The translations under genes were made by a program, and so were the position numbers. From Candidatus Omnitrophota bacterium (lineage in GTDB: Bacteria; Omnitrophota; Gorgyraeia; Gygaellales; Profunditerraquicolaceae): a stretch of DNA of 33,330 nt. The notes under the pieces were generated by a model, which was given only the letters and a program-made list of their open reading frames with translations, did no database searches and had not been told where the DNA came from. How positions within the stretch are numbered: position 1 is the first letter of the stretch; each line of letters opens with the position of its first letter. The stretch lies in NCBI GenBank assembly GCA_020058085.1, contig JAGVER010000004.1:1-33330 (forward strand), read 5' to 3'. This document shows positions 677-28,223 of this stretch, one piece after another.

Positions 677-830
677 GAGCTCCTTAAGCTTTGGTCTAGC
701 GCACCTTGCCAAATAGGATTGGCAAGTGCGCACTGGCTGTGCGAAATTTGAACTCCTCAAGGTTTTATCTAGTGAAATCCTTGTTGCCGTAGGCAACAAG
801 GAAGTTGATCGAACAATAGTGAGATCAAGT
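677..830 (+). repeat. Modular intergenic repeat cluster 'a': core + inserted hairpin cassette + core + GTA-loop hairpin + GAAC..GTGA-loop hairpin
   Basis: gagctccttaagctttggtctagcg ... cgaaatttgaactcctcaaggttttatctagtgaaaTCCTTGTTGCCgtaGGCAACAAGGA ... TTGATCgaacaatagtgaGATCAA; core shared with clusters at 1462, 7773, 11310, 15521 and 28081. Confidence 0.8.
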
Positions 831-841
831 ACAAAAAGAGA

Positions 842-1333
842 TTACTGAGATATTTTAGCTAAGGCTTCGGATATTTCCTTGTTCAGAAATACCTCGTTAC
901 CAACATCATCCCAATGCACAAAAACATTGGCTACTGCAGAAAGGCCCTTCTTCTTAAGTAGGGATTCAACATATTCTGAACATCTCTGAGCACTAGCCTT
1001 AAAACTATAAATATAAAAACATAAAGCTTTTTTACCAGCTACGCCCTTAGTAAGAAGCAGGTATTTAGTGACCGGGGCTGATGGCCGTCCGCCCCATACC
1101 GGTATCCCCACGCAGAATAAATCATATTCCTTAAGATCGGATTTTATCGTGGCGAGCCTGACAAACATAGGAAAGAATCTGTAGAATGTCCGCTTCAACA
1201 AATTCTGCCTCTTATCTCGATATTCAATCTCGGCAATATTAGCCTCGCCTTTCTTGCGTAAAACATCTGATATTAGATCTGCTACTCGTGCGGTATTGCC
1301 ATAACGAGAATAATAAACTATTAAGCTTTTCAT
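842..1333 (-). CDS. Flavodoxin-like protein
   Basis: MKSLIVYYSRYGNTARVADLISDVL... flavodoxin phosphate-binding loop (YSRYGNT) plus 'GIPVWGGRPSAPVTKYL'. Start moved from the ORF-track M to MKSLIV at 1333; the upstream extension is repeat/intergenic sequence. Confidence 0.8.
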   Translation of the reverse strand: MKSLIVYYSRYGNTARVADLISDVLRKKGEANIAEIEYRDKRQNLLKRTFYRFFPMFVRLATIKSDLKEYDLFCVGIPVWGGRPSAPVTKYLLLTKGVAGKKALCFYIYSFKASAQRCSEYVESLLKKKGLSAVANVFVHWDDVGNEVFLNKEISEALAKISQ

Positions 1334-1461
1334 CCAACCTCCTTGCACAGCAAGTACACATTCCGCAGAAGCGGGATACTCGACACTCGCCTCAGATGAG
1401 GCGCACTTTGCCTCGATTGGTAAAGGTGCATTTATGTCGAGGTACCGACCTATCAAATATT

Positions 1462-1530
1462 GAGCACCTTATATTTTTAGTCTAGCCCTAAAAACTGGAT
1501 CCTTGATCGAACACAAGTAAGATCAAGGAA
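1462..1530 (+). repeat. Modular intergenic repeat 'b'
   Basis: gagcaccttatatttttagtctagc core followed by TCCTTGATC-gaacacaagtaa-GATCAAGGA (1500-1529) hairpin. Confidence 0.7.
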
Positions 1531-7644: not shown

Positions 7645-7700
7645 GCTTATCCTCCTTGCGCAGTAGCGCACACTGGCGCATCATATTACGCCAGATGTTA

Positions 7701-7772: not shown

Positions 7773-7855
7773 GAGCACCTTGAATCTATTGTCTAGCGAA
7801 ATTTGAACACCCTAAATCTTTTGTTTAGTGAAATCCTTGCGCGAAGCGCAAGGAC
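7773..7855 (+). repeat. Modular intergenic repeat cluster 'c'
   Basis: gagcaccttgaatctattgtctagcgaaatttgaacaccctaaatcttttgtttagtgaaaTCCTTGCGCgaaGCGCAAGGA. Confidence 0.8.
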
Positions 7856-9357: not shown

Positions 9358-10188
9358 TTAGTCAACGATAACCACTTCTGTGCCGATAGGAATAATAGTA
9401 TAGAGCTCCTCGACATCATGATTACTCAAACGCACACATCCTTGGGTAACCTGTTGTCCAAGATTTTGAGGTTCGGTTGTCCCATGTAGGCCATAGCTCG
9501 GCAGGTCAATTCCCATCCAACGTGTACCCAGAATATTTTCCGGGCTGCCTGCGGGTACAACTACTCCCGACTTATACCAAGTAGGATTAATTAATTTAGA
9601 GGTAATTTTGAAGTTTCCTATAGGGGTAGAATTATTCTTGCCTGTAGATATAATATAGTTCTTTATAATCTCCTCATCGCTCTTAAGAATCAAAATGTTC
9701 TGCGATTTATCTACAAGTATGCTAAAAGGCACAGTCCAGACTTTTATCTTCCTACCCGGTATAATTTTATCACCGCTTAAATTGTTGCTTATTTTGATTA
9801 AATCAAGCGTAGTCTTAAATTCACGCGCGATCTTGGCTAGAGTATCTCCGGGCTTAATCTCATAAAGCACACTCTTAGGAGTTATAACTAAAGAGAAGAG
9901 TAATTTTATATTTATATCATCTATTTTTTTCTGCCAATTCATTACCTCGTTAGAATTCGGGAAATCATTTACTAATTGCTGGAATACATTTTTGAGGCTT
10001 ACCAAATCTCCTTTAGCTTGCAAATCCTTAGCTTTATTTAAAAGCGCTGAAGCAGAGACCGACCCGCCTATTTTCTGCAAGGGAATATTATTGTTACTTC
10101 TAAAGAAAAACGTCAAAATAAGAATCAAAACTAATATTGTTACAATCGCTAATACAACAGGAATTCTTCTAACCACTTTAATCCTCAC
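9358..10188 (-). CDS. LysM domain L,D-transpeptidase (YkuD)
   Basis: LysM 'YEIKPGDTLAKIAREFKTTLDLIKISNNLSGDKIIPGRKIKV' plus YkuD 'GLHGTTEPQNLGQQVTQGCVRLSNHDVEELY'. Confidence 0.92.
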   Translation of the reverse strand: MRIKVVRRIPVVLAIVTILVLILILTFFFRSNNNIPLQKIGGSVSASALLNKAKDLQAKGDLVSLKNVFQQLVNDFPNSNEVMNWQKKIDDINIKLLFSLVITPKSVLYEIKPGDTLAKIAREFKTTLDLIKISNNLSGDKIIPGRKIKVWTVPFSILVDKSQNILILKSDEEIIKNYIISTGKNNSTPIGNFKITSKLINPTWYKSGVVVPAGSPENILGTRWMGIDLPSYGLHGTTEPQNLGQQVTQGCVRLSNHDVEELYTIIPIGTEVVIVD

Positions 10189-10635: not shown

Positions 10636-11196
10636 TTATTTGCCCGGGGCTGGAACTACCTCTATTTTTACTCTGGTAGCAGGTATGCTTTGGCCGCCTT
10701 TAATCAAGAATCCGCGATTACCAGTAAACCTTGCCAACCTCTTTAATTCTTGGATTGCTGCTTTAAGCTCAGGGATAGAAGTTAATGTTGATTTAAAAAC
10801 CTCATTCTCTTCGGTAAGCTTAATTTTATCTTCCGAGAACGCAAGATTTTCTGCTTTTAGGACAGAAATTCGCGAATTCAACTCTTCGAATCTCTTTTCT
10901 GAAAGCTTTAAGTCTAAGAATGACCTATCTAATCTTTTATGAACGGCCTGCAAATTGCTTTTTAAACTATTATTCTTCAGCTTAAGCTTCTCTACGGTAT
11001 TTTTTTCTTTCTCTAGCTCTTGCAATAGGTTTTGCTTCTGGCTTTCAAGGTTCTGCTTCTGGCTTTCAAGGTTCTGCTTCTGGCTTTCAAGGTCTCTGAT
11101 ATTCTCTTTTAAATAAGAAACATACCTGAAGACCCCAAAAACTAGAGTGCTGGCCAATAAAAGAATTAATATATTCTTAATAAATTTCTTGTTCAT
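10636..11196 (-). CDS. Membrane-anchored coiled-coil protein of unknown function
   Basis: N-terminal TM then long coiled coil with exact heptad repeats LESQKQN x3. Confidence 0.7.
   Translation of the reverse strand: MNKKFIKNILILLLASTLVFGVFRYVSYLKENIRDLESQKQNLESQKQNLESQKQNLLQELEKEKNTVEKLKLKNNSLKSNLQAVHKRLDRSFLDLKLSEKRFEELNSRISVLKAENLAFSEDKIKLTEENEVFKSTLTSIPELKAAIQELKRLARFTGNRGFLIKGGQSIPATRVKIEVVPAPGK
11030..11092 (-). repeat. In-frame 21-bp tandem repeat x3 (encodes LESQKQN heptads)
   Basis: TTTTGCTTCTGGCTTTCAAGG, TTCTGCTTCTGGCTTTCAAGG, TTCTGCTTCTGGCTTTCAAGG. Confidence 0.95.
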
Positions 11197-11309: not shown

Positions 11310-11399
11310 CGCTAGATCAAAGCTTATTGTTATGCCCATACTTGTCCTCACTAAAAAGTTCGGACAAGTATTTCGCTAGATCAAAGCTTGAGGTGCTCA
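11310..11399 (-). repeat. Modular intergenic repeat cluster 'd' (opposite orientation to the others)
   Basis: Plus strand ATACTTGTCCtcactaaaaagttcGGACAAGTATttcgctagatcaaagcttgaggtgctcaa; second core ggatttcgctagatcaaagctta upstream. Confidence 0.75.
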
Positions 11400-15520: not shown

Positions 15521-15793
15521 GAGCACCTTGAGCTTTGGTCCAGCGAAATACTTGACCGAACGAAAGTGAGGTCAAGTATAAGAGCACCTTATGCTTTGAT
15601 CTAGCGCACCTTGCCAAATAGGCACCTTTGCCTATCGGAAAACAAAGTGCGCCTCTTGCGAGGCGATTGGCAAGTGCTGCAGAAAGCAGCACACTCGCAC
15701 TTCGGTCGAGGCGAGGTGTGCGCACATGCTGTGCGAAATTTGAACACCAAAAGTTTTTATCTAGTGAAATCCTTGCGCGAAGCGCAAGGACCT
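15521..15793 (+). repeat. Modular intergenic repeat cluster 'f' (three cores plus large multi-hairpin cassette)
   Basis: gagcaccttgagctttggtccagcgaaATACTTGACCgaacgaaagtgaGGTCAAGTAT; agagcaccttatgctttgatctagcg + cassette; cgaaatttgaacacc...tagtgaaaTCCTTGCGCgaaGCGCAAGGA. Confidence 0.85.
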
Positions 15794-27927: not shown

Positions 27928-27935
27928 AAGTCTAC

Positions 27936-27968
27936 AAAAAAAGCTCTCGCTTAGATTACAAGAGCTTT
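27936..27968 (-). terminator. Terminator-like hairpin with T-run in the leader of the ATP-grasp/kamA operon
   Basis: Minus strand AAAGCTCT-tgtaatctaagcg-AGAGCTTT followed by Ts (7 T, 27942-27936), ending ~9 nt before the ATG at 27927. Confidence 0.6.
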
Positions 27969-28044
27969 AAGAAATAACGTCTATTTTTCCAATTTGAACT
28001 TAATGCCTCCTAAGAATTAAACCTAAATATTGTATTTATACTAT

Positions 28045-28073
28045 TTTTTATCACAATATATTGTCCTTGTCAA
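28045..28073 (-). promoter_or_regulatory. Possible sigma70-type promoter for ATP-grasp/kamA operon
   Basis: Minus strand TTGACA (28068-28073), 17 nt, TAAAAA (28045-28050); the -10 is weak. Confidence 0.45.
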
Positions 28074-28080
28074 GGAAATT

Positions 28081-28223
28081 GAGCACCTTAAATTTTTATC
28101 TAGCGAAATACTTGACCGAACGAAAAATGAGGTCAAGTATAAGAGCACCTTAAGTTTTGATTTAGCGAAATTTGAACACCATGAGCTTTTGTTTAGTGAA
28201 ATCCTTGCGCGAAGCACAAGGAC
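28081..28223 (+). repeat. Modular intergenic repeat cluster 'g'
   Basis: gagcaccttaaatttttatctagcgaaATACTTGACCgaacgaaaaatgaGGTCAAGTATaagagcaccttaagttttgatttagcgaaatttgaacaccatgagcttttgtttagtgaaaTCCTTGCGCgaaGCACAAGGA. Confidence 0.85.

Follow-up and report, generated by a model that had tools for sequence, protein, structure and literature searches.

The 42-nt insert at positions 702-743 of the window (the whole 33,330-nt stretch of DNA analysed) is a double-hairpin element (DHE), one of an Omnitrophota family of mobile-like elements that occur in tens of copies between genes of some of these bacteria. It is a real cassette, recently active, site-specific and self-nesting; the initial annotation was right to read it as a cassette and wrong to read its flanks as a target duplication. 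The DHEs are likely to be a mobile-like double-hairpin family that is copied in trans, inserts site-specifically and into its own copies, and makes no general target duplication.

Structure and distribution of the element

DHEs are 41 to 46 nt long and have no coding capacity. Hairpin I is a stem with a bulged C (YAC-C-N6-loop8-N6'-GTR), comprising YAC, the bulged C, six variable base pairs, a loop of about 8 nt (TAAAGGAT, TATCGGAT, TAAATGAA, TATTTGAG and others) and GTR; hairpin II, which follows directly, has 5-6 bp and a loop such as TTACT. The elements start with YACC, and the bulged C and the loops are conserved. The covariance model was built from 16 copies, all of 42 nt, because MAFFT mis-sets hairpin II loops of unequal length; the insert at 702-743, itself one of the 16 model-building sequences, scores 62.3 bits (E 2e-16). 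Among these 16 copies 98.2% of cells are paired and both sides have changed in 10 of the 14 pairs, while none of 500 shuffles is as good. No match to the DHE above the gathering score is found in Rfam.

The source metagenome-assembled genome (MAG), G000, is an Omnitrophota assembly of 665 kb, 58% complete, of which 663,257 of 665,029 bases were analysed; the window is its contig 15. A structural descriptor has 62 matches in it and 5 in the reversed genome, and a stricter one 22 and 0, respectively. With the covariance model, G000 yields 53 copies (61 when the cut-off is relaxed), the sister species G003 58, and three other congeners 0, 4, and 2; G029 carries 85 copies and G035 carries 44, and at least one DHE is present in 38 of the 59 genomes. 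In a search of one genome for each of 84,980 species, an exact 27-nt pattern matched 24 contigs, 23 of them labelled Omnitrophota. The remaining one (L308) is labelled Planctomycetales, probably a problem of the taxon label, because its sequence and context are the same as those of a DHE locus of the genome G009. A non-exhaustive search for viral carriage, with one CACCCGG-type pattern, gave no exact matches.

Insertion sites in the window

The window holds DHEs, a core repeat and two hairpin modules, H1 and H2:

677-701, plus strand: left-hand core repeat of cluster a (GAGCTCC..TAGCG), by pattern search
702-743, plus strand: DHE between two cores, hairpin I at 702-728 and hairpin II at 729-743, by covariance model (62.3 bits)
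744-774, plus strand: AAATTT and the right core copy of cluster a, by sequence and pattern search
779-802, plus strand: hairpin module H2 (CCTTGTTGCCGTAGGCAACAAGGA)
805-829, plus strand: H1-like hairpin module (TTGATCGAAC..GTGAGATCAAG)
1362-1444, minus strand: composite of nested DHEs, in the leader of a flavodoxin-like gene (842-1333, minus strand), by covariance model
1461-1527, plus strand: core and H1 module set into the loop of hairpin I in the outermost DHE of the flavodoxin-like leader, by direct reading
7657-7697, minus strand: DHE immediately 5' of AGGAGG and ATG, by covariance model (33.8 bits)
7773-7829, plus strand: cluster c, core-core tandem, junction unfilled after 7798
7835-7853, plus strand: H2-type hairpin of cluster c
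10176-10188, minus strand: empty site between two genes (TAGTGAGGATTAAAGTG), by comparison with the G003 ortholog
11374-11398, minus strand: core repeat of cluster d, then an H1-type hairpin, by pattern search
15521-15606, plus strand: cluster f, core, H1 hairpin and core
15607-15735, plus strand: outer DHE of cluster f holding two nested DHEs, by covariance model
15623-15665, plus strand: sense DHE within the loop of the outer element's hairpin I (AATAGG^ATTGG); its counterpart at C4:24235 matches the covariance model
15675-15718, minus strand: antisense DHE separating the two hairpins of the outer DHE, by covariance model
15742-15766, plus strand: right core of cluster f, by pattern search
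28081-28198, plus strand: cluster g, core, H1, core and core, junction unfilled after 28167

The core repeat (TTTGARCWCC-N6-TTTNRTYTAGYGAAA) has 28 copies in 665 kb at up to two mismatches, and the reversed pattern none; the strings quoted in the initial annotation are all present where it placed them. A core is followed by module H1 (CCTTGATCGAAC..GTGAGATCAAGG), by H2 (CCTTGTTGCCGTAGGCAACAAGG), or immediately by another core, and in the last case the junction is either empty, with the cores abutting, or filled, with CACCTTGCC..GTGCG between them. G000 has four filled junctions, at 702-743 (cluster a, 42 nt), 15607-15735 (cluster f, 129 nt), C4:24278, and C5:94976, and three empty ones reading TAGCG|AAATTTGA, at about 7794-7804 (cluster c), 28163-28173 (cluster g), and C5:118664. 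In G003 three are filled and one is empty, and the filled ones lie at a position identical to that in G000, which bears out the claim that related inserts occupy one precise site. The insert of cluster f does begin and end as the element does, at the same junction, but its length is 129 nt and not the ca. 125 nt first given: the element is no different, but carries two more DHEs nested in it, one in reverse orientation.

In silico excision brought six such nested composites to light in G000, against zero in the control. Nested DHEs follow a G in the hairpin I loop (AAAGG^AT, AAATG^AAT, AATG^GAT, AATAGG^ATTGG), stand at the hairpin I foot (CCGG^TG) or, as in cluster f, lie reversed between hairpins I and II; the non-nested insertion points are the core junction (TAGCG^AAAT) and positions 5' of Shine-Dalgarno sequences. 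In the composite at 1362-1444 the outer TACCTCGACATAAATG^..AGTGTCGAG element contains a 41-nt DHE at about 1388-1428, and the insertion point of the core and H1 module at 1461-1527 reads CACCCGGCCTT^ATATTTGATAGGTCGG on the minus strand.

Flanks of the element and a proposed guide-like rule

The GCG on both sides of the insert had been taken for a target duplication, and it does stand on both sides in clusters a and f, at C4:24278, and at three G003 sites, as it would after classical DNA transposition of a miniature inverted-repeat transposable element (MITE) with a 3-bp target duplication. The flanks GCG/GCG are, however, not universal: C5:94976 reads TAGGG|..GCG and a G009 site TAGCAG|..GCG, the same right end following other left flanks, and further sites lack them as well. 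The right-hand GCG is the foot, or 3' arm, of hairpin II (CGCAC..GTGCG). Filled sites without duplication retain this arm intact and paired (AAAGG|CACC..GCGGGA|AT and AATG|TACC..GCGGCA|GAT), and a third filled/empty pair, TTAAAGG|..GGCGAA|AATTG, likewise has no duplication. Moreover, no terminal inverted repeats span the DHE. Classical transposition of this kind is thus very improbable, and the DHE does not qualify as a MITE derived from a DD(E)D transposon, as neither terminal inverted repeats nor a general target duplication are seen in the filled/empty pairs.

Between the 5' flank and the first bases of hairpin II there is a tendency to complementarity, over 1-2 nt. Of 107 classes, 61 have position -1 of the flank complementary to position +1 of hairpin II (expected: 46.6) and 32 have position -2 complementary to position +2 (expected: 21.4), values reached in 2 of 2000 shuffles each; at positions -3 and -4 complementarity is not significant. 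The correlation is modest, and shared descent leaves the subfamilies less than fully independent. When 695-746 is folded as a single strand, the prediction pairs the 5' flanking GCG with the 5' arm of hairpin II, and hairpin II is not formed. We infer that this complementarity reflects a guide recognising both the target and the right end. The 5' arm of hairpin II would have two alternative partners, the element's own 3' arm at the right end and the target flank on the left side, and such pairing would give rise both to strand-specific insertion and to the apparent GCG..GCG. Copying of the DHE would take place in trans, through an enzyme that is encoded by the host or by an IS and acts on a folded single strand, which may be DNA during replication, or RNA with subsequent reverse copying. 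If the guide rule is true, the element offers a minimal design for single-strand insertion that lends itself to testing.

Guide/target base pairing is a feature of IS200/IS605 elements, and DHEs, like them, insert in a site- and strand-specific manner without target duplication. A more specific version of the copying in trans is that the DHE is a REP/REPIN-type or IS200/IS605-derived element moved by a Y1 (HUH) transposase whose substrate is the single-stranded hairpin. The short bulged hairpins, one-sided target specificity, strand-specific insertion, lack of duplication, and guide-like complementarity follow the logic of IS200/IS605 and REP elements (PMC8266576), and Y1 genes of some kind are present in 42 of the 59 relatives. 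Nevertheless, the foot of the DHE lacks GTAG/CGTC, the number of Y1 genes does not follow that of DHEs (rho -0.07), and no Y1 gene is present in G034 (98% complete, 15 DHEs) or G035 (89% complete, 44 DHEs), so that a Y1 enzyme is a possible but doubtful mover. In the 58% complete G000 no Y1 TnpAREP gene was found, and DHE-like ends were not seen by eye at the one tnpA locus inspected, the best IS605-like copy in G003. In the 5' flanks of 112 covariance model hits the last base is mainly G (61) or A (43), and a common GTAG is absent.

Comparison with known systems

The kinds of element closest to DHEs are REP/REPIN and the mitochondrial double-hairpin elements. With REP, REPIN, and BIME sequences served by TnpAREP (RAYT), DHEs share extragenic hairpins of 20-50 nt in high copy number, a stem bulge present in some of them, and proposed non-autonomous transposition (PMC8266576); they differ in the missing GTAG/CGTC foot, the two-hairpin unit, self-nesting, and the absence of a tie to a Y1 gene. 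The likeness to IS200/IS605 lies in one-sided target specificity, no target duplication, and guide/target base pairing (PMC8266576), whereas DHEs have neither a transposase gene nor a linker between the hairpins, and their proposed guide lies 3' of hairpin I, not 5'.

Double-hairpin mobile elements have already been described in mitochondria. The mitochondrial DHE of Allomyces and the repetitive hairpin elements of sponges likewise consist of adjacent short hairpins located in intergenic regions or tolerated RNA loops, and their copy number is patchy between close relatives; in sponges larger composites are copied as units (PMC2800124). The Allomyces elements, like the present ones, have no flanking duplication, which is reported to have been the argument for their possible RNA-mediated spread (PMC2800124). 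The Omnitrophota elements differ from the mitochondrial ones in sequence, in their location on bacterial chromosomal contigs of MAGs rather than in organelles, in the precise site and strand rule, and in the Shine-Dalgarno neighbourhood, and no evidence of common descent of the two was found. The GC clusters of yeast mitochondria (GC42) are also about 42 nt long, hairpin-forming, and site-specific, with rapid turnover and merging of copies (PMC4478555), but carry AG or ACT flanking repeats, while DHEs have no general duplication. A bacterial counterpart combining self-nesting, lack of target duplication, and clustering at ribosome-binding sites was not found in the open-access papers searched.

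Gain and loss of copies

A modular gain and loss of cassettes, likened initially to that of a miniature mobile unit, is seen in filled and empty versions both within the genome and at orthologous loci. The check proposed with that claim, a search for filled and empty alleles in relatives, was carried out on 196 syntenic intergenic regions of G000 and G003, whose orthologs have a median protein identity of 77%. An element is held by 22 regions in either genome, 13 in G000 only, 6 in G003 only, and 3 in both, so that 19 differ. One G003-only site falls within the window, at 10176-10188, where the G003 ortholog has two DHEs in tandem, with AGGAGG after them. The congeners G002, G003, and G004 and the outgroups G005, G006, and G009 all lack cluster g at the orthologous site; the flanks can be aligned on the stop-codon side and on the TTGACA promoter side, and the cluster was therefore most likely gained on the G000 side. 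Copies of the DHE have been gained or lost after the divergence of closely related species. An FMN riboswitch (RF00050, 85 bits; L033:13687-13895, corresponding to C4:33687-33895 of G000) carries antisense DHEs in both variable arms, and loci of G003, G017, G029, and G041 have a similar sequence context with a DHE; since such arms are occupied in several genera, not every copy is recent.

Two composites, C8 (near 39397-39647) and C11 (near 53828-54024), are near-identical from CACCCGG to just past AAGGAGG and differ by one clean 41-nt DHE and a few substitutions. Their loci are unrelated outside the composite, the homology stopping at the element boundaries. Copying of composites could in part be homologous recombination between repeats. 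Palindromes promote template switching, and the copying of composites as units would also be expected if the hairpins spread by replication template switching or palindrome recombination with no dedicated enzyme; yet the boundaries are exact to the base, the targets recur, and the conserved loop and bulge sequences need either a recogniser or constant recopying, which makes such enzyme-free spread unlikely.

A separate palindromic insertion of ca. 300 nt (TACTGAGTCATCAGCAAATAATGG..), possibly a different MITE, occurs in G000 at C5:96246-96555 and C4:54581 and is absent from the G003 ortholog.

Relation to genes

According to a simple ORF caller, the downstream gene shares the strand of the DHE in 40 of the 47 intergenic cases in G000, while the bias is weaker in G003 (16 same, 8 opposite). 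A Shine-Dalgarno-like sequence lies within 2 nt of the DHE 3' end in 14 of 45 cases in G000 (background 1.7%) and in 3 of 33 in G003 (background 2.0%). In several cases the joined flanks make an intact Shine-Dalgarno sequence, e.g., ATAAAGG^AGGTAAGTATG at C7:138758 and TTAAAAGG^AGAGACCGATG at C5:10838. The orientation of DHEs and their spacing to start codons suggest that the surviving insertions are those which leave or supply a usable ribosome-binding site.

The many sense-oriented, Shine-Dalgarno-adjacent copies and the strong RNA-like covariation are also what inherited regulatory RNA leaders, acting in translation or attenuation and evolving by duplication and loss with no mobility, would display. 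Against this, the presence of DHEs is not tied to genes, as the 19 of 22 differing syntenic sites of the sister species indicate; antisense copies lie in cores and riboswitch arms, the elements nest in one another, and their number ranges from 0 to 58 inside one genus. Immobile leaders are hence improbable. Regulation by CsrA through a GGA loop and the Shine-Dalgarno sequence was excluded because csrA is absent from G000; it was found in 1 of the 59 genomes.

With the DHEs taken as mobile-like elements, some of what looks like leader RNAs or expanded riboswitch arms in Omnitrophota may consist of mobile insertions. A bolder and rather speculative proposal is that of a bacterial mobile element class reduced to two hairpins, with the 5' arm of hairpin II as a switchable guide and with a preference for single-stranded, Shine-Dalgarno-like targets that include the loops of its own kind, which would build nested RNA leaders and reshape translation starts genome-wide.

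In G000, 22 of the 26 intergenic cores (simple ORF caller) lie on the strand opposite to that of both neighbouring genes, and the cores of clusters a, c, f, and g lie about 7-12 nt upstream of the TTGACA -35-like box of the next gene, in the gene direction. Two further observations concern the window itself. The leader upstream of a Ddl-like gene (27928-28080, minus strand) comprises a promoter, then a conserved AGGAGG with a very short TTG-GAA-AAA-TAG frame, and then a terminator-like hairpin with a T run; it is kept across many relatives and looks like an attenuator. Three tandem direct repeats (AGGTTCTGCTTCTGGCTTTCAAGGT) with 21-nt spacing are located at 11027-11093, within the ORF 10636-11196.
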